Assembly: GCA_964023275.1 (NCBI GenBank)
Contig: OZ029917.1
Coordinates: 29,588,005 to 29,652,004, forward strand
Length of the DNA stretch: 64,000 nucleotides
Direction: 5' to 3'
Source: Norana najaformis
Lineage: Eukaryota; Annelida; Clitellata; Crassiclitellata; Hormogastridae
Positions 6,775 through 32,617 of this stretch are shown piece by piece (position 1 is the first letter of the stretch; each line of letters starts with the position of its first letter). The notes below the pieces were generated by a model. The model ran no database searches, had not been told where the DNA came from, and saw only the letters and a list, made by a program, of their open reading frames with translations. Position numbers and translations under genes: made by a program.

Positions 6775-7735
6775 AAGTAGGTATGTAATGCATTTGTTAA
6801 CATGCCATATGTGCATCAACTGAGCAAGGAATCATAGGAATGGGTGGGCATGGCAGTCAGACAACAAAAGCCAGATGATACAAATAGGTCTTAAGCCACT
6901 TTATGAATGTCTAGTGAGTTATTGTTATGAATAGAATGAACAGGAAGACTATTCCAGATGATGACTGGTGCAGAATAGCTTAATCCACTTTAGGAGAATT
7001 CAGATCAACAGATTTGGATGGCAGGGAGAGACAGACAGTTTTGTGTAGCTGATTGCAGAGATCTGGATGGTAGCAATGTAAGGAAGATGACAGGTAAGCT
7101 GGTTGATTGGTAGAGAGAGTCTTGTGTATAAGGAGAACTATCTTGTAAGTGATTCTGGAGCTGACAGGCAGCCAACATAGGTTTTCCAGTACAGGAGAGA
7201 CATGATCAAACCTGTGGGTTCCTGTCACCAGACAGGCTAATGAGTCAAAGTGACTGAGTGCTATGTACAGTTGTGTGTCGTTGGCATACTGGTTTCCAGA
7301 AATTACACTGGCAACTGCAGCCACATAAAGCGTGAAAAAAATTGGGCCAAGGACTGACTCTTGTTGGACACCATATGCATAGGTCTTGCGCCCTTAATGA
7401 TCCAATGTTGACGTGTTGTGACTGGTCCCTCAGGTAACTGCTGATCCGATCCAGTGCAGCATCGGTAATGCCCAATGTCTTCTGTAGCCTCGCGATGAGT
7501 GTTGCTTTGTCAATCGTATCAAAGGCAGCAGTAGGGTCGAGACCGATAAGCAGAGTGGGTTGATGTCGTCTGGAAGCAGTGTAGACATCATCAGGAATCT
7601 TCAATAAGGCCATTTCAGTCAAGTGATTCCCATGGTAAGCTGACTGATGAAAGGAGCTGCTAATGTGATACAAGAGATGAGCAATGAAGACACATTTCAA
7701 AATTTCAACAGTGTAAGTTTGAAGCTGGGCTGAAT
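6775..7735 (-). mobile_element. LINE B-like RT fragment, minus strand
   Basis: Reading leftwards, the frame contains SAYHGNHLTEMALLKIPDDVY, then TLLIGLDPTAAFDTIDKATL (RT motif A, F-D-T-I-D), SYLRDQSQHVNIG, and QYANDTQLYIALS (YADD decayed to YAND). It then jumps to FDHVSPVLENLCWLPVSSRI and LWN-type C-terminal coding, so the thumb region was lost by an internal deletion. The 3' untranslated part (6795-6900) is shared with 40547-40675, and the end is a degenerate ACTT-rich tail. Many frame breaks; inactive. Confidence 0.75.
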
Positions 7736-8241
7736 CCTAATGGGGTTCATGAAGAATGTTAGACCATCCCAAATCAGTCACTATGGAAAAATTACTGGAC
7801 TGGTGCATCAACTTCCCAGACAGTTAAGAGTTAAATTACTTTAGTTTACTGTTGCCTCTTAGTGGAAAAGGTCTTTGACTTACCTTGAGGAAATGATGAA
7901 TATCTTTGCCATGAACATCTTGACGTGCATGTCTAGATACAGGTGTTTTGCAGAGGAACTTGTGGCTGCTTCATAAGCAACACTATTAACAAGGCATCTT
8001 CAAGTGATCGATTCCGGGTTCTAACTAAATATTTGTGCATCACTGTGATGCATCAAAGACTGCCTCTTGTGGTGCATCAGAATTTGCTCTCGTATATAAA
8101 GTCATATATAACAACCCTTTGCTTTCCAACTGGTGAGAGTTTGGGGGTCCTTGGCTATGGCTATCATTTGTACTGTGATCAGTATTTCATTTCCTTAGAT
8201 TTAGCAACAAGTTTGTGCATGAAAAGACCTATTCAACTTGA

Positions 8242-8273
8242 ACTGTAGTGCTGAACCAGTTCAGCACTACAGT
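8242..8273. repeat. Perfect 15 bp hairpin palindrome
   Basis: ACTGTAGTGCTGAAC at 8242-8256 is followed by CA and its exact reverse complement at 8259-8273. It may be a fold-back scar like those inside neighbouring LINEs, or one end of an unrecognised element. Confidence 0.9.
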
Positions 8274-8795
8274 ATCAGAGGCCTTCCACAAGAAGCTTGC
8301 CAGACTAAACTGAAGTACAGAGGTGATGTGGCTGAATATCAAAAATGGCCTGTCACTAGGCTCCTTGAATAAATAAGTAATTGCAATTAATCCATAGATT
8401 AAAAATTAAATTGAAAATTAACTGCAAATTAATCACACTTTTAACAAATGAACAATCTTCATTAAATTAAAACATACAAGTTGCTAATAATTTTTCAGTC
8501 ATAATTCCATTGAAATAATCTAAACATCATCTAAAAATCAGGATATAGAAATCTTTTAAAATGTATTTAATAATTTTTTAAGGTTTACTCCTATTAAGTG
8601 AAGCCAGTAACTTCAGTAATCTTGCTTAATTATGTTGCCTGGATCAGGCAAAGCCCTTTTCTTATTAACTATATGCCCTGATAAAGAAAACCATTCACAA
8701 GGTACCGCTGTTGATGGTGATGCCAAATACTTCTTGGCTAGTCAGGTAAAAAAATAGATGTGCTCCAACATGTGACATTTACTATTTTAATGGAC

Positions 8796-9107
8796 TTATG
8801 TCAATGTCAATCTGCGGTTCAGTTCTACAATGTTGGGGGCAGCTTTTGAATTGGTTCCAGGATGCATAAGTGGTTCATCTTCTGAATCCAAACATAGTTC
8901 ATGGATACCAAGTCTCTCTTTGGGAGGTTCTGGTGGAGTGTTTGTGGGCAAATACGATGGGCTGCGCATTAAAGAATTTTTCAGCACATGGGCCACATGA
9001 TGAGTGCAGAGCAAGCCTATCAGGGGTTTGGGGCAGAGCCAGTGGAGTCTGGGGAAAACATTAGTAGAAGAAATCCCCCCAAAAAGAGAATTTTTATACA
9101 GAGTCAT
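8796..9107 (-). other. Unrecognised exon-like open frame
   Basis: A 103-codon minus-strand frame ends NIVELNRRLTLT-stop. The part after a possible acceptor (ATGCGCAG|CC) is rich in Pro and acidic residues (TPPEPPKERLGIHE, CLDSEDEPL) and looks protein-like. It could be an alternative terminal exon, but its phase does not fit the UPA donor at 29593. No family recognised. Confidence 0.2.
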
Positions 9108-9149
9108 TTCTGGCTATTTTTCTTGTATTATGTTTTAGGTTTTTACATT

Positions 9150-10680
9150 GTATTCTAGTCCATATTAGACTGTTTACCCTTCTCTTAAAAAGCCATCTCT
9201 CCCTCTTGATGATTTATCAAACTATTGCCTCATCTCTACTCTCAATTTTATTTCCAAAATCCTGAAAAAGTAGTTGCCAATCGTACGAGTAGTCATTTTT
9301 CATCACACAACCTGTGCCTTCCTTTCCAATTTGCCTACTGCAAAAATATTATTCCAAATAAACCTCAATCACATAATCAACTCCAAGGACCAAGGAAAAG
9401 TAACTGCTCTCATTTTCTTGATCTCTCTGCTGCTTTTGATGCTGTTTATCCAGGCATACTCCTTTACCCTCTCAAAAACAGGTTTGGTCATTCTGGTCAA
9501 GCTCTCCAATTTTTAACAGCTCACCTACATCCTCATATTCAGTCAGTATTAAAGGTTAGGGTCAGGGTCTGAATTAGGGAAAGGGTCTGGGCCGGGGCCA
9601 GGATCCAGGTTGGGTTAGTGGGAGGCCAGTTCTGATGGGGTTAAGAATAGGGTTAAGGTTAGGGTCAGGGTGGGGAAGGTGGGGGTTCCTTTTTGTGGAG
9701 TTATAGTAGGAGTTGGATCTGTAGTGAGGGGAGTGGTGTATGTGTGCATGTCGGGGGTTGGGGGAATGGGGGATAACCTGGATTCCATCCAATGTTAAAA
9801 TCCTTTGTCCCCTGGTGAGTTGGTTGGGGTGGGGAGGTGAGAATTCAGAGGGAAAAGGGGGAATTTTGTTGGGTGGAAAAGGGGTAATATTTTTTTACCT
9901 TATATTTACATTTATCGAGCGATTTATTTATAACCTTTATTCTATACATATATATGTATATTTTTTATAGTTCCTTATATACAAATCTCGAGGACCTTCT
10001 ATTGGATTACCTAAAGTATTCTATATCCCTGAGATGGGAAGACTGGTTAAAGTGGGGGTTTCAGTTTGTGGGATTGCATATGATTGTCAGGATCCTTGGG
10101 CATTAGCTAGATGTGGGCCAGGAAGGTAGTGCATAGATCAGATGATTTAGACCCACATGGTACTTTATTCTTTTGGCAGGTGTCAATCTTGACCTGGAAC
10201 CAAACCCTTTTGCTTATCGATTTTGTTTTGACTGAGTGCCTGCGAATAAGCTGGCTCCCGCGACTTCGCTTTTGTTGGGCTCTGTAGAAATCTTGAGATT
10301 ACGATTACGATTCTTATCAACCAACTCACTTCTGTGCCTACTATCTTGAATTGTGTCATTCCACGAGGTTTGGTACTGGGCTTGCTTTTGTTCACATTGT
10401 ACTGTATATGACTCCATCTGGTTAACTACTTACTGGTAACTCTCTTGACTACCACTTGTAGACTGATACCCAGCTATTCCTCTCATTCAACAGTTGTACA
10501 TCTAATCCTGCTGTCCAGCTACTTGCTTCAATTGTTGGTGATGTTCAGTCTTGGATGGCTAGTAATAAACTTCTGAATCCTTTAAAACCTGAATTCCTTC
10601 CTCTAGGTGCAAGCCAACAACTTCACAATTTTTATTGTTGATCTGTTCAGTTGGGGAATTTGTTTTTTGAGTAGTTTGCA
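9150..10680 (+). mobile_element. LINE 'D'-like RT fragment, split
   Basis: 9190-9553 reads KPSLPLDDLSNYCLISTL, NFISKIL, LDLSAAFDAVYPGILLYPL and HLHPHIQSV. 10314-10680 resumes with NQLTSVPTILNC, a decayed motif B (VIPRGLVLGLLLFTLY), and VQLLA-type and QSWMAS-type blocks. The two parts align end to end with LINE D elsewhere in the window, so 9554-10313 is an insertion. Numerous stops. Confidence 0.6.
9554..10313 (+). mobile_element. G-rich insertion ending in a LINE A tail
   Basis: The first 330 bp are strongly G-rich on this strand, with repeated GGTTAGGG and GGGTCAGGG words. The last 126 bp (10188-10313) are the LINE A 3' end, from TCTTGACCTGGAACC through GTAGAAATC to the ATTACG hexamers. 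The intervening sequence does not match LINE A. It may be a non-autonomous element using the LINE A tail, or an independent insertion next to a 5'-truncated LINE A. No clear target duplication. Confidence 0.45.
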
Positions 10681-11934
10681 GTGTGTCAAACATGGTTATT
10701 TTTTGGTATCGCGAGTTGCAAATTATATGTGGTATTTGACAGACTTGTGACCCAGGTATATCATTATCAAAACTGTGAAACCACTGTGGTAACTTTTTAA
10801 ACTACAATGCAACATATCTAAATAATTTTATTAAAAATACAGTTAACATAAACATTTCTTATCATATTTAAAGTGAATTTATGAACAAAATTTCATGTTT
10901 TTTGGTAGTCTATCAAAGTACATGTGATGAAATATTCTGTGAAACTGCCAAACATCTTATGATATCAAGATAATGTCATTTATGCATACAGCATCATATA
11001 TTTTGAAAGTTTTGTTGTACATAAGATGAAAATTTTGTTGTTACAGTCTTCCATACTGAATCATCCAGCTGGTACTGACGTGCGCTATTACTAAGTGCTC
11101 GAGGTGCTTGCACAGACTGAAGGTCATGTTGGAATGGAACCCAGCATATGTCACCATGTCTTGACCAAGTCAGATGATAGCTTCCCCTTCTCTGTGTGCT
11201 TGTCATGAATTTGATGAGAATATCTTCTTTGTCTGACCAATCTGTTGTCACCCTAATGTACCAAAAATTCCCCCATCAGGATTTTTTGGACTACTTATCA
11301 ATTGATCTATTCTCTATCAGAAAATAAAATAAAAAGATAATATTTTTATCACCCTTTTTGGGAATATTTGTTCTCTTTGACCCTGTTGTCAGATTTGGTG
11401 AACTTTGACCTACTATATCCAGCAGATGTGAATAAGTAATCAAGTCAAACTTTGCCAAGTAATTGCCAGCCACATAGACAGTATACATATAAAAATGGAA
11501 TGCATTGTGCCTGGTACATTTGGAGATATTGACCACTGAATATTGCAAAATTTAGAAATAAAATGAATATGAAGGCACTTTTGACATTTAATACAGCTGA
11601 AATTATAGGACACATTATAATAATTATTATGTTTTTGTAATCTATGCAAGAAACTGTACAAACACACAAAAATCATCTGATTTAGTCTAACAGTTCTAGA
11701 GATAACAGTTCTCAAAAAGTGGACATCACGAAGTTTCGCGAAATGCCTTCGGAGGGTGGGGTCACGGGATCAACGATATCTTGGAAAGTATCTTAAATAT
11801 TACAGAAAAAATGTGGGCTTTTCCATCCAATACATCTCGCAACATGTGGTTTAAATTTCAGCCAATTCTGAGATGGTCAAGTGGGAACTTTTCTCAGAAT
11901 TGGTTGAGTTGAGCTGGAATGACCCCACTGTTAA
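10681..11934. other. A+T-rich intron sequence with one motif-bearing frame
   Basis: No RT-type coding. The minus-strand frame 10994-11251 contains WSDKEDILIKFM and HGDICWVPFQHDLQ, which recalls a short domain often seen near transposon-derived genes in invertebrates (G-x-W..-D-x-CWV/Y-P pattern, from memory). A minus-strand frame at 11291-11548 may be its upstream part. Neither has splice support. 11450-11720 is unassigned. Confidence 0.3.
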
Positions 11935-12275
11935 AATGATCGGTCAAGGAGAGTTCCCGGTCCAGAACAACCCCAAGATCACGGACTTTGGAACACAATA
12001 GGATGTCCGGAAACTTCTGGCGTAAGGATGATGAATCAATCTTAGCAAGCTGAGCACGACCACCAAGCAGATGAACTGGGTCTTAGCAGAGTTCAGTCGG
12101 AGGCAATTAGAGGACATCCAGAGACCAAGGGCAGATGTTGCGTCAAGAATCCTCTCAACCAGAGAGGAAACCGCTTCCGCTAAGCCATGAGTGAAGGCCT
12201 AAGTGTCGTCTGCATACTGATGGACAGCAACACCCATGGGAAGGAGAACCCGTGCCAGGTCGGCAGTGTACAGAA
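11935..12275 (-). mobile_element. LINE G-like RT fragment
   Basis: On the minus strand it reads LYTADLARVLLPMGVAVHQYADDT, WMSSNCLRLNSAKTQFIW and SKVRDLGVVLDRELSL. The YADDT catalytic box is present, but only about 110 codons remain. It matches 53550-53880 (LINE G) block for block. Confidence 0.8.
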
Positions 12276-12279
12276 TGTA

Positions 12280-12570
12280 AAGGAGATACTTTGTGGTATT
12301 TTGTTCACAAAGTACCCCATTTAAATCAGCCAAACTATCTCCGTTTCATGTTGAACCATCATACCAACAAATATTGCACTCGATCAGTGGATACTATGTC
12401 TCTTGTACTTTGTACCAGAACAATTATGGGTTCTTGAGTGTTCTGGGTGGCTAGCTTTGGAATTCGCTGCCAAGTTCTATTTGTTCTGTCAGTTCTGTTA
12501 TGTCATTCAGGTCTAGCCTTAAGACTCATCTGTTTCATCTTCTATTATCAATGCAAAGTTTAGTGTTCTG
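12280..12570 (+). mobile_element. LINE C-terminal fragment
   Basis: Plus-strand reading gives NYLRFMLNHHTNKYCTRSVD then IMGS, SFGIRCQVLF and LALRLICFIF, a decayed version of the R-S-x..G-x-R-F-x..W-N-x-L-P..L-K-T-H-L-F end of CR1-like polyproteins. It faces the LINE G fragment on its left. Confidence 0.5.
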
Positions 12571-13499
12571 TTGTGGGAGAAGTTTTCTACGACAGCAAAA
12601 TAAGATATAATTAGACTTAGACAAATTCACCTTAAATCAACCTCTGCTACGTGCACAAGTTAAGTGTTAGCCAACTCCAGTAATATGTCCAATGATTTGT
12701 TAGATAGAAAAACGTTAGTGTCAACTGTAAAAAGGATGAAGTAAGCCAGATGAGTTAGGAAGATCATTTATGTAAAGAAGAAACAGAAGGGGACCCAGGT
12801 TAGACCTCAGAGAAACTCCACAACAAATGAATTTTACTTGCGATAGACTACCTTTACACAAGACCTGCTGCTGTCTTTGGTCCAAATAACTTCTAAACCA
12901 GTAGTACCTTTCAAATTTACTTAGGAAAATGCTATGATCTACAGTGCCAAAAGCTTTGGCTAAATAAAAAAGTATTCCTATTCAAAATGAATTCTGATAA
13001 ATAAATGGCCTGGGTAATTTTATCAAACATATTTAAGAGTGGCATAGTTGTAGAGTGACCTATTCTAAATCCATATTAATGAGCATATAAAATATAAATT
13101 TTTGCCATGTAGCTATTTAACCTTTCATACATAAGCTTTTAAAAAATTTTAGAAAAGAAGGGCAATATAGAAATTGGTCTATAATTAGCAAAATCTTCCT
13201 TATTTCCAGATTTGAATATCGGTACCACTTAAACAATTTTTATCCCTGACGGGGCAATACCTACAGAAAAGGACCAACTGACTATTTTTGACAAAGGCAC
13301 TGCAACAGCATATATAGCAGAACTAGCAATGCAAGGGTCTATAGCGTCAGGTCCTACACTATGTGTAATACAAAATGATTGTGCCAGATTTAAAATTTCT
13401 TTTGGTGATGTGGGAAAAATTCCAAAGGAATTTAGGGCTGGTTCATTAAGAAAGGTATCATAGGAGACTCTTCCATGAGCAATTCCAGCAGCTAATCAT

Positions 13500-14544
13500 T
13501 GTCCAATTCTTCTTCTTCTTCTTCTTGTGGTTCTCTGCCCTTTAGGCAGGTTCATACGTCCAATGGCGCCATTCTTCACGGTGCTAAGCATCTCTTTTCA
13601 GTCCGCTATATCCATCCGTGATCATCCAGTCCAGCAACATCTGTCTAGGTCTTCCTCTTGTTTTTCGTCCCTCCATTCTTCCCTCCATAATAGTTCTTAC
13701 AAGTGAGTCCCCTCTCATTATGTGGCCAATCCATTTCCTCTGTCGACTTCTAATTGTTCCCACCAAGGATCTTTCTTCCTCTACTCTTTGCAGTATCTCC
13801 TCATTTGTAATGTGCTCCATCCAGCTGACTCTCTCCATCCTGCGCCATATCCACATCTCAAATGCTTCCAATCTTCTGATGTCTTCCTTTCTCAGAGTCC
13901 ATGTTTCTGATCCATTCAGAACCACGTTCCATACCAAGGTTTTCACCAGTCGTTTCTTCAGGTTCCGATTTAGTTTCCCTCTCATTAGTTCCCTCCTTTT
14001 ACAGAATGCGTCCTTTCCCATAGCTATTCTCCTTTTTATTTCAGCAAGGCATTTCACATCTTGTGTAACCACACTACCCAGGTAGCAGAATTCCCCGACC
14101 TGTTCTATTTCTTCACCATTTATAGTGATCCTGACTGTCGTTACCTCTTTTTTACTTATCTTCATAACCTTTGTCTTTTTGATGTTTATTTTCATTTCAT
14201 ATTCTGTCGAGACACTATTCAGCCAGTCCATCATTCTCTGTAGACCCTCCTGAATGCCCGCCAACATCGCCTGATCGTCTGCAAACCTCAGAGCATTCAG
14301 CAACCTGCCCCCCACCTTTATTCCCTCTGTCATGTCCTCCAATGCCTCTCTTATAAGTTCTTCAATGTATATATTGAAAAGCAGTAGTGAAAGTGGGCAA
14401 CCCTGTCTCACTCCTCTACCTATTTTTCCAGGCTCCGAGTATTCTCCTTTGATTCTTATCCTTACTTTCTGGCCCACGTACAGGTTTCCTATAAGCCTTC
14501 TGTCTTTCCAGTCCACACCCAGTCATGTGGACTGGATGTCCAAT
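13500..14544 (-). mobile_element. RTE-like LINE copy 1 inside LINE E
   Basis: The element spans 13508-14536 with TSD TGTCCAAT at 13500-13507 and 14537-14544. Its 3' end is an (AAG)n tail read on the minus strand. The frame 13584-14516 encodes [20 protein letters not shown] (motif B), [12 protein letters not shown] (FADD box), then [20 protein letters not shown] and [11 protein letters not shown], the RTE C-terminal signature. It is 5'-truncated before motif A. The long uninterrupted frame suggests modest age. A small hairpin lies at its 5' end. Confidence 0.93.
14507..14536. repeat. Snap-back hairpin at the RTE copy 1 truncation point
   Basis: TCCAGTCCACA (14507-14517), an 8 nt loop and TGTGGACTGGA (14526-14536) form a perfect hairpin ending exactly at the target duplication. 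The left arm is RTE coding; the right arm is extra. Confidence 0.9.
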
Positions 14545-15080
14545 GCTTGTGAAAAAATCATGAAATTTATTAGTCATAGAACTTGCATCCTTAATTATAG
14601 TTTCATCAAAATTAATACAATCAATATTAGATCCTATATTACCCATTTTCAATAATGATCTAATAACACTCCACATTTTTAAGATTATATTTGTATTTGG
14701 TAAATTTCTGTTGTAAAATAATGCTGCTCAGCTTTAATTCGTATTTGTCTAAACTTTTTACGATATGCTATAAATTTTAGCTTAGTTTACATTAGAGCGA
14801 TCTTTTAGGTATTTTAAATATAATTTAGATTTCTTTTTACATGATTTCAGTAAAGCTGTAGTCATCCATCGTTGTCTTGGTACATTATGTTTTTGCTTAT
14901 TTTGCTGAATCAAGAGAAATGCATTATCATAGGTTTTCTCGTATTGTTCAATAAATAGAGCATATGCAAGTGATGGATGCCAAGGATGTCGGAGTTCAAC
15001 CTATTTGCATAAGCAGTGACTGAAAGTGTTTCATAGAGACATCATTTATAAGCCTGGCAGTAAGTGGAACACAGTCACTG

Positions 15081-16272
15081 GATCCTCTTCTTCTTGTGGT
15101 TCTCTGCCCTCTAGGCAGGTTCATATGTCCAATGGTGCCATTCTTCACGGTGCTGAGCATCTCTTTTCAGTCCGCTGTATCCATCCGTGATCATCCAGTC
15201 CAGCAACATCTGTCTAGGTCTTCCTCTTGTTTTTCGTCCCTCCATTCTTCCCTCGATAATAGTTCTTACGAGTGCGTCCCCTCTCATTATGTGGCCAATC
15301 CATTTCCTCTGTCGACTTCTAATTGTTCCCACCAAGGATCTTTCTTCCTCTACTCTTTGCAGTATCTCCTCATTTGTAATGTGCTCCGTCCAGCTGACTC
15401 TCTCCATCCTGAGCCATATCCACATCTCAAATGCTTCCAATCTTCTGATGTCTTCCTTTCTCAGAGTCCATGTTTCTGATCCATTCAGAACCATGCTCCA
15501 AACCAAGGTTTTCACCAGTCGTTTCTTCAGGTTCCGATTTAGTTTCCCTCTCATTAGTTCCCTCCTTTTACAGAATGCGTCCTTTCCCATAGCTATTCTC
15601 CTTTTTATTTCAGCAAAGGCATTTCGCATCTTGTGTAACCACATTTCCCAGGTAGCAGAATTCCCCGACCTGTTTATTTCTTCACCATTTATAGTGATCC
15701 TGACTGTCGTTACCTCTTTTTTACTTATATTCATAACCTTTGTCTTTTTGATGTTTATTTTCATTTCATATTCTGTCGAGACACTATTCAGACGGTCCAT
15801 CATTCTCTGTAGACCCTCCTGACTGCCCGCCAACATCGCCTGATCGTCTGCAAACCTCAGAGCATTCAGCAACCTGCCCCCCACCTTTATTCCCGCTGTC
15901 ATGTCCTCCAATGCCTCTCTTATAAGTTCTTCAATGTATATATTGAAAAGCAGTGGTGAAAGTGGGCAACCTTGTCTCACTCCTCTACCTATTTTTCCAG
16001 GCTCCGAGTATTCTCCTTCGATTCTTATCCTTACTTTCTGGCCCATGTACAGGTTTCCTATAAGCCTTCTGTCTTTCCAGTCCACACCCAGTCGTGTAAG
16101 TGCATGCATTAACTTCCTCCAGTCTACTCGATCAAATGCCTTCTCGTAATCTACAAAGCATACGTAAATGTCCTGACCATGTTGGAGATTTCTTTCTGCT
16201 ACTACCTACAAGGCTCCAATTGCACTTCTTGTTCCTCTACCCTTCATGAACCCAAACTGATGAGGCCAGATT
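15081..16272 (-). mobile_element. RTE-like LINE copy 2 inside LINE E
   Basis: This copy is nearly identical to copy 1 over their shared 1 kb and extends further 5', adding QFGFMKGRGTRSAIGAL near 16240 and [20 protein letters not shown] (motif A) near 16130. The long frame 15111-16109 holds [20 protein letters not shown] and [14 protein letters not shown]. Unlike copy 1 there is one frame change around 15660. The tail is (AAG)n at 15087-15096. I could not find a target duplication. Confidence 0.9.
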
Positions 16273-16662
16273 AAGATTAGCCCAAACAATAAGAGGAAGG
16301 TGATCAGAAATATCACTAAGAATGATCAAGCAGTCAGCCAGATTCAAAAAAGCATTGGTAAAGATATTATCAATAGGAGTAGCTAACGTTGAAGTAATTC
16401 TAGTAGGGTGACAATATCTTGGGGAGGAAATGATATGACGACAAACAATTAAAGAAATTGTGAGTTAAAAAATGGCTATCAGACTGTAAGAGGTCAATAT
16501 TAAAATCACCAGCTAAGAAAATTTGTTTATCCAGTTTGTTAAGTAACTGGTCACGATGTGTATTAAAAGTATCCAATGTTTGTCCAGGTGGTCTATAAAT
16601 GGCACCAATAATACAGTTAACTCCATGATCATGGGCTAACATTATAAAAAATACTTTCATAT

Positions 16663-17207
16663 TGTGGCGAACGGCGGTGCGTCTGTCCAATCCTCTGCAA
16701 GTCCGTCAGGTTCGGCTCCCCCTAAATCTAGTGGGAGGCTTCTTCTACTTCTCAAGTGAAGAACAACGACGTAAACTTTCCAAATTTAATGGTGTTCAAC
16801 TCAAGCAACAAACTTTAATTAACTTCGAAGATCAACAGTTCTGTATGAAAGTCAAACAATTTGCCATGAGTCCTCACTTAATCACTCGAGAACTCCACCT
16901 TTAGATTCGTGCCACAACGACAGCACAGCAAGAGCAGCAACAACCGAACAACAACCACCATAAAAACAAAAACAACTCACTTATATATCACTAGCCTACC
17001 AGCTAAGCCTACACACCAGTTAAGCCCACACACAGTTAAGCCCACCAGCTCAGCTACGGGCCACCTAAGCCTACAAACCAGTTAAGCCTATACCAGTTAA
17101 GCCTACACACCAGCTCAGCCTAAGGGCCAGCTAAGCCTACACACCAATTAAGCCTACCAGCTCAGCCTACGGGCCAGCTAAGCCTAAACTGGCGACGGTT
17201 TGCCACA
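16663..17207 (-). repeat. LTR (3' in element orientation)
   Basis: Begins TGTGGCGAACGG and ends GGTTTGCCACA on the plus strand, so the ends form short inverted repeats of the TG...CA type. 16980-17190 is a run of AAGCCTACACACCAG / CTCAGCCTACGGGCC units. Confidence 0.9.
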
Positions 17208-20200
17208 CTCTCCACCCACCACTAGTCAAAAACCTCCCTTAGGTTTGTCAGGAAAAATCAGACAATTACAGGCAAACAAAACAAAGCCACGTCCAGTAAT
17301 CATATGAAAACAGAACAGTTTATCCAGTCAGATAATTACAAGCAAATCAAAACCATGTCTGACAATCATACAAAAACAGTTACTGGCAGCAGCAATTAGT
17401 CCACATAACCACGTCGTCGTCATCATCGTCCTCACCATCCACATTGGGTGGAGTCAGGGGTCGAACTCTTCCACATGGAAGGCGAGGGCCGACGGGGAGG
17501 CACTGCAAGCTATCGCAGCCACGTCGCGCTAAGGTCCTCAGGGGTCGGACTTGCAGCCAGCCACTCGTCCAAGAACCAGATAAGACCATCGCTCGGTTGC
17601 GGTAGGTCCAGGATCTGCACCAGGAAGCGAGTCGGGAGGCACGCCCACCTCCGGAAGCCAGACGCTCACAGACGAGGTGTCGACCAGGAGGCAAAAACCA
17701 TCTCTACTTGATGCCATCCTAGCCTCTTCAAAAGTGGAGACGCCGAGATGAGAAGGCTCGACGATGGAGCTGGAGCCAATGCAGACTGCGCCCACGTTCG
17801 ACGCTACCGATTCGTGTTGTCGACGGGAACGTCGACGCAAGGAGCGCGCCGAATTGCCCGTAAACATAGTTCCACACTCGTTGCACTGCAGAACGAGAGG
17901 TCTTTCCGCCATGGTTGCCAATAACGTACTACAGTAGTCGATGCGCGTGAGGCCTTTATACACCATGCTCGTCCTTTAAGGTGACAGCACACAGGCTAGC
18001 CTCCATTATTGAAATCTGATTGGCCTACGGACGGCTAGTTGCGGCCGCCTTGACACTGGCTCAGGCATCAACATCACGGGAACCCCTGCTCTCTCTTCTA
18101 CGGGTAAAGGGTCTGCCCCTCCCTCGTCCTGATAAGCCCGCAATTTGTGGGCCACAAAGAGTTTGGCCCTTGGTGATTTCTGCAGAAGATAAGTCACCGG
18201 ACTCAACTGGCGTAAAATCTCAAAGGGGCCAGTGAACATCCGCTGCCATTTTGGGCTGCGGCCTACATACCTCCTCAGCGTGAAGTACCACACCCGGGAA
18301 CCCACAGCAAATCTAGCAGGGCGAACGCGCAAATCATACGCGTGTTTCCTACACTCAGTAGTTCTCTTTAGCTGCTCACGTATAAGTCTGTACGCGGCCT
18401 CAGGCCTCTCTACCAACTCTTCAGCGTAAGGGAAATAAGCGGTCTTTCTCTCTTCCTCGACGGGAGGTCTTCCGTGCACCTCTCTCAGCCAATCAGGCGC
18501 AGGCCACAGGGCTACAACGCATACTTTGCCGGATCCACCGCGATCCCCATGGGTGTGACCACATGGTACTTGCTGGGCTTCAACGTGAGGTCTACTCTCC
18601 GAAGCCTTTGGAACATTTGTCTCAGCCTCTCTAGGTGCTGTTCGGGTGTTCTCCCAAAACCGATCACATCATCAAGGTACACGGATAAAACGATGTCCAT
18701 CTGCCTTTGGAAGGTGGCCGGCACATTGCATAATCCGAAGGGCATCAACCGCCATCGGAAAATCCCCCTGCGAGTGAACAAGGCTGAACCTCTTTCGCCT
18801 CGGTCATCCATGCTGAGGCGGTGGAAGATAGGTTCCTATACAAGGTCCTGGCTGGTACATCACTCTGTGCTAAGGGGGATATCACTACGTCTTCGGCAAC
18901 CATCACCCTGCGGCACCACATGGAACCTTCTCCTTTTACTAGTTGGATGCGCTTCCTGGCGACAAACAGCGCGCCTGTACCGAACCCCAAACGGCATCGA
19001 TGCTGCCTCAACCAGTCCATTCCTAACATGGGTTCCAGGACCTGGTCAGATACCAAAAAGGAGGTGTCCAGCTCAAACCCGTGTCTAATCTTAATGGGAA
19101 TACAGATCTCTCTCAACACCTGGATTTCCGTGCCATTAGCAGCCAAAAGGGTGCGCCTGCTAGGGTGCAATTCTAACCTCATTACCGTGGAAAAGGGTAC
19201 CAGACTCACTTCAGAGCCAGTGTCGATTAGGCACTTCTGAGAACATCCGTGGATCACACCTTGAATGTAGATCGTGTTCCCATCCGTTCGGCTCGATGAC
19301 CTTTGCCAAGCAGTGTGGTTTACGGCTGCCGCCTCTTCCTCTGGCCGGTCATCGGGTGCGATGGCCTCCATTGTAGAACTCCTGATTCTTCTCGGTTGGC
19401 GACAGCGTCGTGCAAAGTGTCTTCTCTTTCCGCAATTGTAACAGGCTCCATCCTGCCTCGTTTTCTCTGGTGGCGTCCTATCGCGCCCGTCGGCCTGTCC
19501 CATTCCTTCCGACGTCTCATGCAGTCTTCGTATGGCCGCTAGTTGTCGGTCCATCTTCTTCTCCCATTTGGACTGCCAACGCCGTTGTGTCTCCCGTTGC
19601 GCCGAAAAGAACTGTTGCAACTGGTTCTGCAGCAGGCCCATCCAGTCGGTTTCTTGTGTCCCCCGGACATGGTTTGTTGGCCGTTGCCGATCATCTCCAT
19701 CCGACATCCGCTGATAGGTCTCCAGCCGCAGGGCCACCCGGTAAGCTTCGTCGTGGGTTCTAGGTCCCCTTTCACGTACTTTTAATGCCAATTCACGATC
19801 GCAGATAGCCTCCAGAAACGCATCAACCACAGTCGTCTCATTCGAAGGTGTCGAGTAGGCGAGCACCACTAACCGCTCGACATCATGTAGCAGGTCACCA
19901 AGAGGCTGTTGACATCGATAATAAAGCTGTGCCCAGAAGGTTTCCGCTTGTCCCTCCGTGCCGTATCTCTGCCGCAGTCTCTTAGTGAGCTCTTCGTAGG
20001 TAACGTCTTGTTGCACCCCGAAATCCCACAGCAGCTTGGTTGCAGCCTTATCGAGTGCGCAGTGCAGGAAATCAATCTTGTGGACATCATTCTGGCTGAA
20101 GCCCCTCGCAGGGCTGTCGAAGTCGATCCCCTCCAAGAATCGGCTTTGCTGACTCTGGCGTCTGTCCGACATCTCCCTCCTTGTCTCCGGCGTCGAGCTT

Positions 20201-20365
20201 TCCGGCTGATGATCAGCAGAATCTGCCAGGTCCAATAGGGTGTATACAACTGTGTTCTCTTCTGACTCCGCAGCGTCCATACTGGCTTTCTACCGACGGT
20301 CTTTGACAGGTGAACAACCCTTGCAATGGAAAGACAAACGTACCCCACTTCTGGTACCAAGTTAA

Positions 20366-21129
20366 GGCGAACGGCGGTGCGTCTATCCAATCCTCTGCAA
20401 GTCCGTCAGGTTCGGCTCCCCCTAAATCTAGTGGGAGGCTTCTTCTACTTCTCAAGTGAAGAACAATGAAGTAAACTTTTCAAATTTAATGGTGCTCAAC
20501 TCGAACAACAAACTTTAATTAACTTCGAAGATCAACAGTTCTGTATGAAAGTCAAACAATTTGCCATGAGTCCTTACTTAATCACACGAGAACTCCACCT
20601 TTAGATTCGCGCCACAATGACAGCACAGCAAGAGCAGCAACGGCAACAACTGAACAAACAACAACCACCACAAAAACAAAAACAACTCACTTCCATATCA
20701 CTAGCCTACCAGTTAAACCTACACACCAGTTAGGCCCATCAGCTCAGCTATGGGCCACCTGAACCTACACACCAGTTAAGCCTACACCAGTTAAGCCTAC
20801 ACACCAGCTCAGCCTATGGGCCAGCTAAGCCTACACACCAGCTCAGCCTATGGGCCAGCTAAGCCTACACACCAGTTAAGCCTACCAGCTCAGCCTATGG
20901 GCCACCTGAGCCTACACACCAGTTAAGCCTACACCAGTTAAGCCTACACACCAGCTCAGCCTATGGGCCAGCTAAGCCTACACACCAGCTCAGCCTATGG
21001 GCCAGCTAAGCCTACACACCAGTTAAGCCCACCAGCTCAGCCTACAGGCCAGCTAAGCCTACACACCAGTTAAGCCTACCAGCTCAGCCTATGGGCCAGC
21101 TAAGCCTAAACTGGCGATGGTTCGCCACA
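20366..21129 (-). repeat. LTR (5' in element orientation)
   Basis: Matches the LTR at 16663-17207 over its non-repetitive 330 bp. It is about 220 bp longer, mainly because its internal array of AAGCCTACACACCAG and CAGCCTATGGGCCAG units (20700-21110) has more copies. The inner boundary is uncertain by about three bases. Confidence 0.9.
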
Positions 21130-21253
21130 ATATGAGTTGTGATATAACTTTAAATCCAAGACATCAAATGTGACACCCTCCTTAATGAAGAAAGCGACAT
21201 CTCCACCTCTTCCTGTGGTTCTACATGTATAGAGAAATTGATATCCTGGTACA

Positions 21254-21428
21254 ATACAGTTTCATCATCATCATCATCAACAACCGTGGGCTCAATGCCC
21301 GTAGGTGTCCGATGCCCGTTTCACAATGTGTCTCCACTCGATTCTGTTTTGAGCCGCATGTCCCAGTCTCTGCAAGTCCGCGCCACACCACTCCTCAATG
21401 TCATCCACCCACTCTCGATACAGTTTCA
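21254..21428 (-). mobile_element. Short retroelement with (TGA)n tail
   Basis: 21265-21417 is flanked by the perfect duplication ATACAGTTTCA (21254-21264, 21418-21428). On the minus strand it ends in (TGATGA)n. The sequence CAATGCCCGTAGGTGTCC is shared with 60163-60315. It is either a SINE-like unit or a very short LINE 3' end, inserted in LINE E. Confidence 0.85.
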
Positions 21429-22024
21429 GCATGAAATAAGTCTAACCATGTTTCAGTCAATGCCAAAATGTTCACAGGTAACTGGGTCAAAAGCAGAGAA
21501 ATATCTGACATCTTGGGAATGAGGCTCCTGCAATTTAAATGCATAATAGTGAATTCATTATGACCCTCTGAAGTGAACTTCCAGATAAGTGACGAAGGAC
21601 TTCTTTTATATGTAATATAATAGGAGTTGTGGACAAAATAATTACTCTCAGGATTTAGATTTTCATTATTCTGAAGTGGCTTACTGTCATTTTCTTCTTT
21701 AATATAGTTGATACTATATAAGACCATTCCATTGAGTGTATCCCAATAACAAATTACTAGAAATTGCAGAAATGTAGCTAACAAGTTCGCTATCATCAAC
21801 AACTTGATTAAAAGGAAATATATCAATGATACACTGCATACAATACCAAGGGTCATTTCCAAATTAATGTAGTAATTCTTTCGGCATAAGCTACCACACA
21901 AAGCGCAAGGTAATGATTTTTGCCAGTTATTAACATAATGCATGCACATTTAACACAGTTCATGTCTCTGAGTAGATTTTCAAAATGTCAATATTATTGC
22001 AGTATAAACTGCTGGGTGTATGAG

Positions 22025-22453
22025 ATTAACATAATTGTTAAAACTCTTCTTTAGAGAACAACTAGTTTTAAACTGACATAACATATGAACAGAGGACGCA
22101 AAATGCCACGTGGAGATAAAAAGGAGGATCGCAATGGGAAAGGATGCCTTCTACAAGAGAAGCGAGCTGTTAAGAGGAAGACTAAATAAGAATCTAAAGA
22201 AGAGACTGATCAAGACACTGATATGGAGTGTGGTCCTATACGGATCGGAGACATGGACAATGAGAAAGGAGGACATCAAAAGAATAGAAGCCTTTGAAAT
22301 GTGGATCTGGAGAAGGATGGAGAAAATCAGTTGGACAGAAAAAAAGACGAATGAGGAGGTCCTACAGATGGTAGAGGAGAAAAGAACTATTAACATAATT
22401 GTTAAAACTCTTCTTTAGAGAACAACTAGTTTTAAACTGACATAACATATGAA
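22025..22453 (+). mobile_element. RTE scrap flanked by a 65 bp direct repeat
   Basis: 22090-22388 encodes [40 protein letters not shown] and RRMEKISWTE, a diverged relative of the RTE copies at 13508 and 15081, in the opposite orientation. It lacks both the RT core and the 3' tail. Identical 65 bp repeats flank it at 22025-22089 and 22389-22453, far longer than an ordinary LINE target duplication. Confidence 0.92.
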
Positions 22454-22769
22454 TGGTAGGAAATGAAAATAAAATATTACTGACCAAAATGGAACACAGA
22501 ATGGAACACATCGCAAATAACCATCAATATCATATCATCAAACTACATTCATCAATATCATGACATCAAGATTAAACTATATTGACCTTAAAAAGAAATG
22601 GGACACATCGCTTATGTCCGTCAGTCATGACATCAGAGCTTAACTGTTTTCCAGATCTTAAAAAAGAAATGAAAATGGGACAATCACAAATGTCCATTAA
22701 TAATATGTTATCATGACTAAGCCATTTTCCAGGTCTTTAACTGAGTTGATCTTTCTGGGCTTTTCAGTT

Positions 22770-23110
22770 GTGGAATCAGAGAACAACCTGCCAAAAACAT
22801 ACCAAGGTAGCCAAGATTGCCTTCTTCAACATGGCCCTTGCACACGAATAAATTTCAGCATTTCTCTTCATTAAGTGTTCGTTTATGTAAACTGGGTTGG
22901 GGTCAGATTTCAAAGCTGAATCACGCAAGAATTTCCTGCAGGCAAGGACGGCATTCCTTACTTGATGTGATGTAAAGATGATGATGACTGGTTGAGGTTT
23001 ACCAGTTTTTACACGTGAGATCAGTTGAGCAGTAGAAATATCTTGTTGATAGATCTCCAATCCACGATGATCCCAGCACAGTTTAAGGACGCTTCATTCA
23101 GTATTAGACT
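22770..23110 (-). mobile_element. LINE E ORF1 C-terminal domain
   Basis: Minus-strand frame reads LKLCWDHRGLEIYQQDIST, GKPQPVIIIFTSHQVRNAVL, ACRKFLRD and VYINEHLMKRNAEIYSCAR. This is the nucleic-acid-binding C-terminal domain of LINE ORF1 proteins (I-I-x-F-x-S..R..V-Y-I-N-E-H-L pattern). The RNA-recognition part upstream is separated from it by the LINE A insertion. Confidence 0.8.
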
Positions 23111-23170
23111 ATGACTCCAAAGGAGATTGCTCCGAAGAAGTTGGGAGTGATGCAACTTGAACAATATTAG

Positions 23171-26100
23171 TCAGCAGGGAGCCAGCGTCGCAGCGTCTGC
23201 GCTTTATTTCTGAAATCTATATTTTCTAACTTTTCGGTGTCTTTTCTGAACTTTTTAATTTTCCTTTCTTACCGGATTTATGCTCTGTCTTTGGTGAGTT
23301 CTTTCCTATTTGTTTCAACTTTTAATCAACTTAAGATTTGCCTAATTTTTGTCCTTTTTGCACTCGTTCGCCTTGCATCTTTACCTTCTGCCATTTTAAC
23401 TTCATCTAACTGCCACGTCATCTTAGATCACATAATGTACCATTCAATCATTCTTCTTATTTTCGGTCTACATTTCATGATCGCCTTCCATATTAGTTGC
23501 CAACCCTTCCACACCCGCTTGCCCTACATTATTTCTACAGCCAAACATTCTTACTGCGCCCAATTTGGCACAACGACTATGCAGTGTGGACGTATGTGTT
23601 TAATTCCTTTATCATTTTTCTTAACTTCATCTCTCAGGTGACCATCGCAGTACCTCACCCACCATACCATCTTCAACATACTAATCCTTCTTTCCGGGGA
23701 CATCCACCCAAATCCTGGCCCACTAGATTTTTATTCATGTCCTCCTCCCTCACCTTTTACCTATCCTCCTCCTCCTTCCAGAATTTCTTCCTCCAGCATC
23801 CTCGACAATACTCAAATTACAAAACAGCCGCTTCTTACTTTGCACGCTAAATATTTGATCATTACTACATCCTGCATATTCCCAAGAAATCAGTGATATA
23901 GCCCTCTCTTCTCACCCGCCTGACATATTTGCCTTATCTGAAACCTGGTTTAATTTAAACATAACTCTTGCTCAATATGAAGACTGTATTCCTCCTGGCT
24001 ACCATCTTTACAGTACACCTCGTCCTTGCAAACCATCTACCCCTTCTCATATAAATCCAACTGGTGGTGGTATTGCCTTTCTCACCCGAGAATCTGCCAC
24101 AGTTTTAGACTCATCTGGTTTCCGTTCACACTTTTTTTATGTGCATCAATTACGCTTAAACTTCCTCACACAAACCTGACTATCTTTAATGTATATTGCC
24201 CTCCATCCTCTTCTTCATATCCAAGTCCTCCATCTGTCTTCTTGAAAGAATTTACCACCCTTCTCTCTACTGCCGCCACTACACCTCATGAATTTCTGAT
24301 TACAGGTGACTTCAGTATACATGTTGATAACCCCTCTGACACATTTGCTTCTGAATTCCTCACCCTATTATCTTCAACTAATCTGGTTCAACATGTCAAA
24401 TTCCCCACCCACATTCACAATCACACACTTGACCTTATTATCACATCATCATTCTCCACTCTATCACCTGATATATCTTTTTCTTTTGACACACCATCTG
24501 ATCATTACCCCATCTTTACATATCTTAACATTCTTACGACACCACGTCCTGATCCTGTCTTTCATTCTTTTCGTCGCATCAGTTCAATAAATATTGAAGC
24601 CTTCATACAAGATATTTCCTGTTCTGACCTCATTTTAAAACCTCCCTCTTCCCTTGATGACCTTCTGTCTTCCTACAACACCACTCTTTCCACCATCCTT
24701 GACAAACATGCTCCTATTATTACCAAATCCGGCTCTCACTCTAACAATCCCTGGTTCAATTCCTATCTCCAGGCCTTCAAATCTTTCTGGCGTCACCTTG
24801 AGCGCACTTACAAATGCATCAGGGATCCTCAACTTCCCTCTGCCCTTAAATCTGCCATAAATAAATACCATCACCTTCTTACTGCAGCTAAACAGAGTTT
24901 TTACTCCTCGCTAGTTCGTTCTCGATCCTCTAGCCCTCGCCTACTCTGGAAAACCGTAAACCAACTCCTCCATCGAAATTCAGCCAGCCCACTTCCAAAT
25001 TCTCTACCATCTTCTTCAATAGCTGACTCGTTCTGTTCTTTCTTTTCGAACAAAATTAGTACCCTCCGTCTCTCTCTTCAATCTCTCCTCCCCAAAACCA
25101 CCAGTAACCAACCTGATGATGCTCCCTCCCCCACTCATGACTCCCACCCTCCCCCCCTCGATCCTCATTATCTGTCTTTCAACCCACTTCAGAGTCTGAA
25201 ATATTATACCTGTTAAAATCACTTCCAAACAAACAATGCGAACTTGACCCTATGCCCACCTCCTTACTGAAAGACTGTGCAGCTATCCTTGTCCCAATCA
25301 TTACCAAAATAATTAATCTCTCCTTATCTACGGGTAATTTCCCCCTCCTGTTCAAACACTCTCTTGTTACCCCTCTTCTCAAGAAATCATCTCTTGACAA
25401 GGAAATCCTTTCGAACTACCGGCCTGTTTCTAACCTGACTTTCATCTCCAAATTAACTGAAGATCCTCTCTCAAATCAATGACTAGCTTCTAACTCACTC
25501 CTTAACCCACACCAGTCTGGTTTTACTAAACGCCACTCAACCGAAACTCTGCTGACATTCTCTCTACAACAAGATTGTTTCTGCCATTTCTCATCAACAT
25601 GTTTCTTGCCTCTGTGTCCTTGATGTCTCTGCAGCCTGCGACACCATAGATCACAATATCTTACTCCACCGACTTTCAGCCTGGTTTGGTTTTGCTGACA
25701 CTGCTCTCCTATGGATACAGTCTTCTCTCCTCCCTCTCTTTCTCTGTTAAAACTTCGGGAGCCTCTTCTAAGTCATGCCCTCTCACTTGCGGAATTCCAC
25801 AAGGCTCCGTTCTTGGACCTCTTCTGTTTATCCTCTACACTACCCCACTCAGTTCACTCATTAAAGCATCCTCCGTTAACCGTCACCTCTATGCTGATGA
25901 CACCCAACTATTCATCTCTTTCTCTCCAAATTGTTTCATTGAGTCTACAGATCATCTTCTTCGTGTGGTTAAACAAATCTCCTCTTGGGTGATGTCTAAT
26001 CTCTTATGCCTGAACCCATCTAAAACTGAATTCATACTTATAGGCCTACGTGACCAGCTCAAGAAAATTCCTGACCCCTCTATCTCCCTCAGCCTGGACT

Positions 26101-27011
26101 CTGCCTCCACCCACACCTTTAATACTAACTCCTCTGTCCGTAATTTAGGTGTTATTTTCGACCAGAACCTTACTTTTTCTGATCATATCACCCATCTTTC
26201 CCGCTCTTGCTTTATGCATATCCGCGACCTTCGCAGAATCCGTCCTATGCTTGACTTCAAAACTGCATCTATCATTGCCACATCCATAGTCCATGCAAAA
26301 CTTGACTACGGCAATTCACTTTTCCTCAATGTTGACACAACCCAGATAAACCGCCTTCAAGCTATCCAGAATGCTCTCACTCGTGCTGTCACCAAAACCC
26401 CCAAACAACATCACATCACCTCTGTTCTCAAATCACTGCACTGGCTTAAAATACCAGAATGAACACAGTACAAAGTCTTATCCCTCACCTACAACACACT
26501 TCAATCCTCCCAACCCTCCTATCTTCGTCAATTATTTACTATCCAACCACTCCGTTCAACCCGCTCCTCATCTGTCCTAACACTTCTTCGCCCTCCCGTC
26601 ACCTCATCCTTAAAATTTGGAAATCGCTCCATAGCCATAGATGCCCACCCCTTTGGAATAAACTCCCGCCAGAATTACGACAGTCGTCTGGTCAATCATA
26701 TGAACTCACCAACACTTCACCTCTTTCAGTTTCTGCGCAGGTCTATCATTCAAGACTCAAAACACTTTTTTTCCAAAAATCTTATCCTGATTCTTCCTCT
26801 TCCCCTTATGTCTTTTCTCGCTACAATTTCAAACACCATCCACCATAGCCGTCCGACTTTCTGACTGCCTGACTCCTGGATCTTGACCTGGAACCGAACC
26901 CTTTTGCCTATCAATTTTGTTTTGACTGAGTGCCTGTGAATAAGTTGGTTCCTGCGACTTAGCTTTTGTTGGGTGCTGTAGAAATCTCGAGATTATGATT
27001 ATGATTACGAT
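23171..27011 (+). mobile_element. LINE 'A' full-length copy 1 (L2-like)
   Basis: A 3.84 kb L2-like LINE. In order: a hydrophobic N-terminal leader (23408-23690) ending in SGDIHPNPGP, a 2A-like motif at 23696-23722; endonuclease with LSETWF (near 23937), INPTGGGIAFLTRES, VYCPP and LITGDFSIHVDNPS (24026-24600); RT with [35 protein letters not shown], and an intact [10 protein letters not shown] box (YADD at 25890-25901); and C-terminal blocks [17 protein letters not shown] and PPLWNKLPPELRQ up to 26848. The 3' end is TTTTGCCTATC..GTAGAAATCTCGAG followed by ATTATG/ATTACG hexamers. A few frameshifts and stops split the reading frame. It interrupts ORF1 of LINE E. The second copy at 56003 is very similar, so the family was recently active. 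Confidence 0.93.
23696..23722 (+). other. 2A-like peptide motif in LINE A
   Basis: Codons read S-G-D-I-H-P-N-P-G-P, preceded by ILILL. The D-x-x-x-N-P-G-P core is that of 2A ribosome-skipping peptides; His-Pro replaces the usual Glu-x. 2A-like sequences are known at the N-terminal side of APE-type LINE polyproteins. Confidence 0.7.
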
Positions 27012-27013
27012 AT

Positions 27014-27490
27014 GACTTAGTTAAGCCATGAACGACTAAGTTATTCAACCTGGTGTAAATTTCCATTTTGTCAATGCGGTGGTGAAGTTCAACATTTTTC
27101 TCTTCCAGTATTTCAATCTTTCCATTTTGGGCCTTGCTTACTATGCCACAGTCTCTTTGGTTATTATTTCTACTGTTTGTAATAGTTTTGATTCAAAAGT
27201 ATCCACCAGTTTTGCAAAACGTTTTTCGATTGTGGGTGAAAGTTTACATAAAGTCCCATTACCAAAGTATCGATGACACAATCATCCAGCACCATTTCAG
27301 TTCATCTATTTTTACGGATTTTTTGACATATTTCCGAACTTTATGTAATCGAGCTAAACTGAAACACAAGCAAACATAAGCCCTAACATAAGCATAGGCT
27401 GAGGTACAGACAATATAAACCATTCCAACTTAGAAGAAAACAAATATAGATTACATCCATCCACTCATCTGCCATCTTGCGGAGAACTCA
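27014..27490 (-). mobile_element. LINE E ORF1 N-terminal region
   Basis: Minus-strand reading gives RFAKLVDTFESKLLQTVEII, a heptad-like segment KAQNGKIEILEEKNVELHHR and IDKMEIYTRLNNLVVHGL, that is, coiled coil leading into the RNA-recognition fold of LINE ORF1. An ATGGCAGATGAG near 27475 is a plausible start; one in-frame stop precedes the coiled coil. Confidence 0.7.
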
Positions 27491-30560: not shown

Positions 30561-31540
30561 TAGTGTTAATTGATCAGTTTGCACTGGTATTTTTTTCTGC
30601 AACAATAAAAATTGCAAGGATTACCCTGGTATATAAATCAGGAGATATCAGTGATCTTAATAACTGTTGTTCTATATCTGTGTTACCTTATATATCAAAA
30701 GTTCTTGAAAAGTTATGTGTCTGTGCATCTATAATTTTGTTGAGACATACTTTGAAGAACTGCTAAATGAAGAAAATCCAAGGGAGCCGCTAGAAAAAGT
30801 CTTTCCTGTGGCAGGACCAGAAAATGAAATTACTCGCAAAGATATTGAGATAGCAATTGAAAAGATGAAAAACAACAAAGCACCAGGTCCATCGGGAATG
30901 ACCACCGAAATGTTTAAAGCACTAGGACATGATGGCATCAAATGGCTATACATCATTTTAAACGACTTCATGAAACAAAAAAGGTTGCCACAAGATCTGA
31001 AAGAAAGTGAAATAGTAGCAATATATAAACAAAAAGGAGACGTACTGGAATGTAGTAATTACAGAGGAATTAAGCTGCTAGAAATTGGACTGAAAGTGTA
31101 CAAAAGAGTGATCGAAGGGCGCATTAGGGATAACCAGTTTGGTTTTAGACCAGGTAGAGGCACAATGGATGCAATCTTCATACTGAGACAGGTGCAGGAG
31201 AAAATACTAGAAGGAAACAACAAGAGATATTGGACTTTTGTAGATTTGGAGAAGGCTTTTGATAGAGTACCAAGAGAGGTCGTATATTGGAGTCTGAGGA
31301 AAAAGGGAGTATTGGAGAAAATTGTGCAACTGGTGAAATCAATGTATGACGATGCACAGACTTCAGTGAGGAGCAATATAGGAAACACAGTAAAATTTGA
31401 GATTTGAGTGGGTGTACATCAGGGATCATGCCTGAGTCCTCTGCTATTCATCATAGTAATGGATGCAATATCAGAAAATGTGAGAAGTACCATGGGATAT
31501 GTTGTATGCTGATGACCTCATAGTGGCAGATGATGCAGCG

Positions 31541-32617
31541 ACAAAATAATCATTAATAATAATTAGCAACTTCTAATGCACCAGTGTCTAATGCACAAGG
31601 CATCAACCGATGGCACACCAAAACCAAGCCACAATCAGGTCGATATCCAGAAGGTCAGTCCGCATGACAGAGAGCCAGCCTATGGTGGATAAGCAATTTG
31701 AAACAGGTAAGTTTTAAGTTGAGAACGAAATGACAGGAGCGACTGAGCAGAACGAACAGACACAGGGAGGGAATTCCAAAGTTTTGGTCCAGCAACCAAA
31801 AATGCTCGTTTACCAAGAACAGTTCTAGCCCAAGGTATGACCAGAGAAAGACAATCAGATGACCTTGCAGAATAATGGTAAGTCTGGGGAATAAGGATTG
31901 ATTTCAAGTGTTGTGGTTAGCCATAGTTCAATGTTTTATAAACTAAAAGTCCTAATTTGAAACAAATCCTTTGCTGAACAGGAAGCCAATGTAAAGATTT
32001 AAGCATAGGGGTTATATGCTCATATTTAGAAGTATTTGTTATGGCTCTAGCCAAGGAGTTCTGAACTCTTTGGAGTTTCTGCATGTTTGATTTAGTGATA
32101 CCAACAAGAATGGAGTTACAATAGTCAAGACGACTGGAGACCAATGCGTTAGCTAAGAATATTCTGGAAGACATGGGGGCATAATGCCTAATTCTGCGTA
32201 TGTCTCGAATATACATATATGATGACTTACAAATACCATTTACATAGTTTGTGAGGGACATGGTTGAATTGAAAACAACACCCAAGTCACGAGCAGTATC
32301 AGTCATCTCAATGAGTGAATCACCCAGTTTTACAGATTTAAGCCATTTGAATTTCTTAAGTTGCTGAGGAGTGCCAAGTAGTAGAAATTCAGTTTTTGAG
32401 GGGTTAAGGAGAAGTTTATTTGCTGCCATCCAAGACTGCAGCTCTTCAAAGGCATCAGACAACAGCTGCACAGACGAGTGACAAGTCAAACTGTCAAATG
32501 AGATGTAGATTTGGGTGTCATCAGTATAGAAATGATATCCCAGTGAATGACTGTCTAGCAGAGTACCTAGAGGTGTGGTGTATAATGTAAACAAAAGAGG
32601 ACCAAGTACAGAACAAA
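31541..32617 (-). mobile_element. LINE 'D' 3' half inside the RTE copy
   Basis: Minus-strand L2-like LINE, 31546-32612, with a short ACAAA duplication. It encodes [32 protein letters not shown] (YADD changed to YTDD), [65 protein letters not shown] and GPKLWNSLPVSVRSAQSLL. The 3' end is an ATT-rich tail at 31546-31565. It is 5'-truncated just before motif B. Confidence 0.9.

Follow-up and report, generated by a model that had tools for sequence, protein, structure and literature searches.

We found that the locus described here is very probably an ordinary nested retrotransposon cluster with a well-preserved layout, in which six independent inserts opened an old LINE that had a presumed ORF1, an APE-like endonuclease and a reverse transcriptase (RT). 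The window, a stretch of 64,000 nucleotides of Norana najaformis (contig OZ029917.1, positions 29,588,005 to 29,652,004 of the forward strand), looks like repeat-rich eukaryote DNA, and a search of the window against Rfam at gathering thresholds gave no match. The decayed LINE, named LINE E here, lies on the minus strand from approximately position 27490 down to 12545 of the window and consists of seven pieces (E1 to E7, 3874 bp in sum) with six inserts between them (11071 bp, with one duplication copy counted per insert). By their coordinates, all six inserts are located directly between pieces of LINE E and none is located inside another insert. The seven minus-strand pieces and the six inserts were placed where the original prediction, made from the sequence alone, had them. 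For four of the inserts, there is good support for the reading that later insertions opened a single LINE.

As a reference for domain order we used a different LINE of the same window, the second copy of LINE A (56001-59818, minus strand), which is independent of LINE E and is called the ruler below. All pieces of LINE E are on the minus strand. The element begins with two ORF1-like pieces, E1 (27018-27490, a coiled-coil stretch, with an open stretch at 27001-27192) and E2 (22454-23162, with a 105 aa open stretch at 22779-23093). The putative APE-like endonuclease starts in E3 (21429-22089, which includes the left copy of a 65 bp repeat; ruler 599-773), continues in E4 (21134-21264; ruler 797-926) and has its centre and end in E5 (16263-16662, of which stretch E5b was placed weakly at ruler 1244-1349). 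E6 (14545-15082) contains open stretches, has a length that fits the ruler and would represent the linker between endonuclease and RT. The frameshifted RT is found in E7 (12545-13507), which stops before the 3' end of the element itself. Coding-like sequence of LINE E reaches approximately position 12545 (stretch 12538-12636), compared with 12600 in the earlier annotation. Open stretches of at least 30 aa from 7000 to 12650 were inspected by eye and showed no further LINE E sequence below 12545.

Fifteen stop-free stretches of LINE E were aligned to the five ORFs of the ruler, with shuffled sequences as controls. Five were placed clearly: E3 (score 78, equalled in 0/500 shuffles), E4 (50, 0/500), E7a (53, 1/500), E7b (60, 0/500) and E7d (99, 0/500). 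E3 and E4 align with the endonuclease-side ORF of LINE A and the three E7 stretches with its RT-side ORFs, the latter in order at ruler positions 1954-2714 (0-1/500 shuffles). Two more stretches gave weak placements, namely E5b (score 46, 24/500 shuffles) and E7f (36-37, 10/500). The remaining eight (E1, E2, E5a, E6a, E6b, E6c, E7c and E7e) did not rise above the shuffles and had best places that were mostly out of order. As a decoy, 42 plus-strand stretches were run, of which 4 passed a level of 9/200 (top score 44, one of them at 0/200); among 45 minus-strand stretches 9 passed, including two that were off-frame. Since decoys score up to 44, E7f is no better than the decoys and E5b barely exceeds them.

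The spacing of the pieces was fitted with seven chosen stretches, the eight that did not beat their shuffles having been dropped beforehand. After subtraction of the inserts, these seven follow the ruler with a slope of 1.04, an R2 of 0.9996 and an rms deviation of 15.5 bp. The successive collapsed gaps measure 11, 308, 608, 21, 172 and 93 bp, against 24, 318, 605, 21, 169 and 114 bp on the ruler. The second of these gaps spans the Ty3/Gypsy-type element and the third spans both RTE copies; before collapsing they measured 4779 and 2825 bp, respectively. Clear stretches by themselves give the same picture, with 1018 bp from E4 to E7a once collapsed and 1028 bp on the ruler. When a single insert was left in place, the rms deviation rose from 15.5 to 348.4 (Gypsy element), 141.8 (RTE copy 2), 132.4 (RTE copy 1) or 43.5 bp (short tailed element). 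The RTE-type scrap and LINE A are inserted upstream of E3, where the rms deviation stays at 15.5 bp, so the fit informs on the four other inserts only. Insert boundaries were set independently of LINE E, from the second LINE A copy, the pairing of the LTRs and the pairing of the RTE copies; of these boundaries, 15083/16262 and 23163 are approximate. As a side observation, the best place of E5a (ruler 944-1031), a stretch dropped from the fit, happens to agree with it.

For these four of the six inserts, the host element thus appears collinear and contiguous after insert removal, as judged by comparison with the ruler. The strict ORF1-to-RT order that had been proposed holds for the part from endonuclease to RT (approximately 21.9 to 12.5 kb), whereas the ORF1 pieces E1 and E2 are without any match. 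Pieces lying on non-contiguous parts of a reference, the outcome that would speak against the original prediction, were not seen for E3 to E7, with a different LINE serving as the ruler.

LINE E appears to be an APE-type LINE, with a predicted APE-like endonuclease followed by an RT. Pfam searches gave Exo_endo_phos_2 (E 0.0014) and Exo_endo_phos (E 0.016, profile positions 120-171 of 225) in E5 and RVT_1 (E 0.0051) in E7, all below the curated cut-offs. At E-values up to 5, five of ten LINE E stretches had no Pfam match and three more had chance-level matches only. PDB searches with five stretches left three without a match and gave one chance-level match for each of the other two (E 0.55 and E 0.7). 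No relatives turned up in viral contigs, which were scanned with a single stretch from each of E7, E5, E2 and RTE copy 2.

Four of the six inserts are bounded by exact target duplications, which measure 65 bp at the scrap, 11 bp at the short tailed element, 8 bp at RTE copy 1 and 4 bp at the Gypsy element. The 65 bp repeats were equalled by 1 of 500 random pairs. The 11 bp duplication ATACAGTTTCA, at 21254 and 21418, was equalled by none of 500, and the 8 bp duplication TGTCCAAT, at 13500 and 14537, by 22 of 500. The Gypsy element has ATAT flush with both of its ends (16659-16662 and 21130-21133); this 4 bp word is shorter than the minimum of six bases set for the duplication scan, which is empty at that site. 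For LINE A an exact duplication was rejected, the best match being 7 bp long and equalled by 147 of 500 random pairs. An 8 bp match near RTE copy 2 (27/500) falls inside the element, and its flanks have just 4 bp words in common. The claim that several inserts have exact duplications is therefore confirmed for four of the six, with LINE A at chance level and none at RTE copy 2.

The host flanks were also joined at four sites, with one duplication copy kept, and the reading frames were followed over the junctions. At one of the four, the RTE copy 1 site, the frame of E6 carries on into E7a, a stretch with a significant ruler alignment, and is interrupted by one stop. Over the Gypsy junction the frame of E4 is open for 11 codons before a stop, and the recognisable reading of E5 is in another frame. 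Joining at the short tailed element produces a frame change, and the frame at the scrap junction is uninformative.

The insert between E4 and E5 is a Ty3/Gypsy-type LTR element (16663-21129, minus strand) with LTR ends and the ATAT duplication, and with parts of pol missing. Pfam matches above the cut-off are Integrase_p58_C and a partial RVT_1; a protease is just below the cut-off (E 5.9e-06), and a zinc knuckle and Ty3_capsid are weak. RNase H and the integrase core were absent from the three stretches searched with Pfam. Paired LTRs together with a short duplication, as expected of a Ty3/Gypsy element, are both present.

Two 5'-truncated copies on the minus strand, which we take to belong to the RTE clade, as we do for the scrap, separate E5, E6 and E7. 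RTE copy 1 (13500-14544) has a (GAA)n tail and the TGTCCAAT duplications and matches RVT_1 with E 3.4e-13; RTE copy 2 (15083-16262, with an approximate right edge) matches RVT_1 with E 2.6e-25. Both have an RT by Pfam, SSR tails are seen, and 5' truncation leaves the copies no endonuclease. The short tailed element (21254-21428, minus strand) would have the truncated 3' end of an RTE-type ORF, and has a (GAT)n tail and the ATACAGTTTCA duplications. It matches positions 60159-60311 (66% DNA identity) and, weakly, the ORF at 3961-4434 (35% aa identity along 34 codons), and resembles the terminal part of an RTE-type ORF with (GAT)n behind it. A SINE was considered for this element and is excluded by its matches to RTE-type coding 3' ends. 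Neither of the two RTE copies matches it, so it seems to represent another family. With the short tailed element included, four of the six inserts are RTE-type in appearance, which implies fewer independent superfamilies than originally suggested.

The RTE-type scrap (22090-22388, plus strand) is an internal piece of an RT gene that is truncated at both ends and lies between the 65 bp direct repeats (left copy 22025-22089, right copy 22389-22453, identical and without assigned strand). It has 74% DNA identity with RTE copies 1 and 2 over 296 of 299 bp, and on its own it has no Pfam match. The exact 65 bp repeats make it reasonable to regard the scrap as an insert in LINE E. LINE A copy 1 (23163-27017, plus strand, approximate left edge) is nearly full-length and lies between E1 and E2. 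It aligns with 56001-59818 along 23173-27006 and has Exo_endo_phos_2 and RVT_1 above the Pfam cut-off; from its 3' end and RT motifs we assume that it is a CR1/L2-like LINE of the CR1/L2 clade.

Alternative explanations were weighed for three parts of the cluster, and the upstream end is the first place where they matter. By their ORF1-like motifs, E1 and E2 presumably form the ORF1 part of LINE E, which would make LINE A a later insert; what points to this is position, strand and the ORF1-like motifs. It is unlikely, though conceivable, that E1 and E2 are foreign to LINE E, that the sequences on either side of LINE A are unrelated old repeats and that the nest extends from approximately 22.5 to 12.5 kb with five inserts. 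Such a shorter nest would be in line with the duplication of LINE A, which is no better than chance, and with E1 and E2, which match neither the ruler nor any database entry (none in Pfam or PDB for either piece, none in viral contigs for E2). However, both pieces are on the same strand, upstream and in the right order, with ORF1-like stretches as a LINE would have them, again by their motifs. A single-sequence structure prediction of E2 was poor (mean pLDDT 58.7). In the preferred reading of a nest with six inserts, the two RTE copies represent two insertions. That they arose instead by local duplication or gene conversion is very improbable, even if they share 97% identity across their common 1 kb, lie approximately 555 bp apart and have the same orientation. 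Their 5' truncation points and their junctions differ, the stretch that separates them has the length expected of LINE E sequence on the ruler, and RTE copy 1 has an 8 bp duplication of its own.

The scrap with its perfect 65 bp repeats is the least ordinary detail of the locus and would be an unusual product of target-primed reverse transcription. It is possible, though less likely than not, that it represents a DNA-repair patch, in which filling-in of a staggered break left duplicated ends and a copied piece of RTE. The scrap ends approximately 256 bp before the 3' end of the RTE copies and thus has neither that end nor a tail, it is truncated on both sides, and the repeats around it are perfect; LINE duplications are typically at most 20 bp long, according to PMC13295347. 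On the other hand, L1 target duplications from several to several hundred nucleotides have been reported (PMC1291365), so such a structure could also come from retrotransposition that was primed internally, left no tail and had a long stagger. Direct repeats were moreover not significantly in excess at gained Drosophila introns (PMC3296678). For internal fragments flanked by long duplications, a search of the literature gave no paper that contained four of its six terms. If true, break repair would provide a non-transposition route for LINE pieces into older LINEs.

The relative ages of the inserts were approached from nesting and from pairwise divergence. No insert lies within another, and nesting therefore yields one relation, in which LINE E is older than each insert; a multi-step order, as inserts nested in each other would give, is not found. 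The divergence of the two LTRs (19/333 in the non-repeat part) dates the insertion of the Gypsy element, and the values for the RTE copies (27/1014) and the LINE A copies (214/3802) are upper bounds that apply to both copies together. Divergence is lower between the RTE copies than between the LTRs (Fisher p 0.014), which suggests that the Gypsy element is older than both RTE copies, as far as sequence divergence can tell. LINE A and LTR divergence show no difference (p 0.90). The 65 bp repeats have 0/65 differences, with an upper 95% limit of 5.5%. Divergence would accordingly separate the inserts into at most two age classes. The chronology of five or six transposon families that had been put forward stands for LINE E as the oldest element, by nesting, and was overstated as a full order, with two age classes at most. 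The one firm relation that the locus yields by itself is that LINE E is oldest; the ranking by age beyond that is weak.

Beyond this, we infer the clade names and the mechanism of each insertion. A minus-strand LINE that carried ORF1, an APE-like endonuclease and an RT would have inserted first and then decayed. Later and independently, six sites in it would have received LINE A, the Gypsy element, two near-identical 5'-truncated RTE copies, a scrap from within an RTE and a short RTE 3' end. Target-primed reverse transcription would account for the RTE pieces that have tails and duplications of 8 and 11 bp, and integrase-mediated insertion for the Gypsy element with its 4 bp duplication.

The use of nested elements as a relative clock is already established, as described in the TinT (PMC3014933) and REANNOTATE (PMC2672092) papers, and nesting of plant LTR elements is treated in PMC6911290. 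The locus therefore adds an example and not a new type of system; it is a clean and checkable example of a transposon nest, which could seed a calibrated order of activity given a search of the host genome. As in REANNOTATE and TinT, fragments of an older element were rejoined and the insertion order was taken from nesting. In contrast to the clusters treated there, we describe a single locus with a star layout, the six inserts lying side by side, and this layout gives less order than a deep nest. Among RTE-clade LINEs, the 3' end of the ORF is followed shortly after by an SSR tail, as in the short tailed element, and some partial elements have target duplications (PMC2887409). Compared with those elements, the scrap differs by lacking a 3' end and a tail and by its 65 bp flanking repeats. 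A 600 kb region of Calliphora vicina (PMC3630058) is alike in that old degraded LINEs served as landing sites, with 11 of 322 repeats nested, whereas at the locus described here six insertions are found within one LINE.

Besides LINE A copy 1, the nearly full-length LINE probably inserted in LINE E (23163-27017, plus strand), the window holds five more copies or 3' parts of the LINE A family. Copy 2 is near full length (56001-59818, minus strand); the others lie at 35330-36381 and 63359-64000 on the minus strand and at 10186-10312 and 39724-40020 on the plus strand. Copies 1 and 2 differ at 5.6% of sites, while the element at 35330-36381 diverges from the two by 14.0% and 13.3%, and these unequal distances suggest that the family was active over a long period. 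For the Ty3/Gypsy-type insert in LINE E, whole-LTR identity is a poor clock, since both LTRs contain a 17 bp-type tandem array of unequal length (16998-17186 versus 20709-21079).

The truncated end of LINE E adjoins a plus-strand piece resembling a LINE 3' end (12255-12545), part of which is 63% identical to 31699-31886. A reverse transcriptase-like piece at 30578-30715 (plus strand) is similar to E7, the reverse transcriptase piece of LINE E (37% at the amino acid level, 46 codons), and overlaps the start of an ORF (30709-31407) that is presumably RTE-type. Elsewhere, a stretch of 840 bp contains two direct copies of a 103 bp repeat (99%; 41464-41566 and 42137-42239) together with two inverted copies of a 61 bp repeat (100%; 41690-41750 and 42240-42300). 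At 62793-63318 a 44 bp unit is repeated 12.6 times in tandem, and this array is open in all three plus-strand frames.

The 5' junction of RTE copy 1, one of two 5'-truncated RTE inserts in LINE E, carries a perfect 10 bp inverted repeat (CCAGTCCACA / TGTGGACTGG; 14508-14535), which is absent from RTE copy 2. Inverted repeats of this type (10 bp arms, loop 3-12) have 7 start positions in the 64 kb. The arrangement at the junction resembles a snap-back in the course of insertion.
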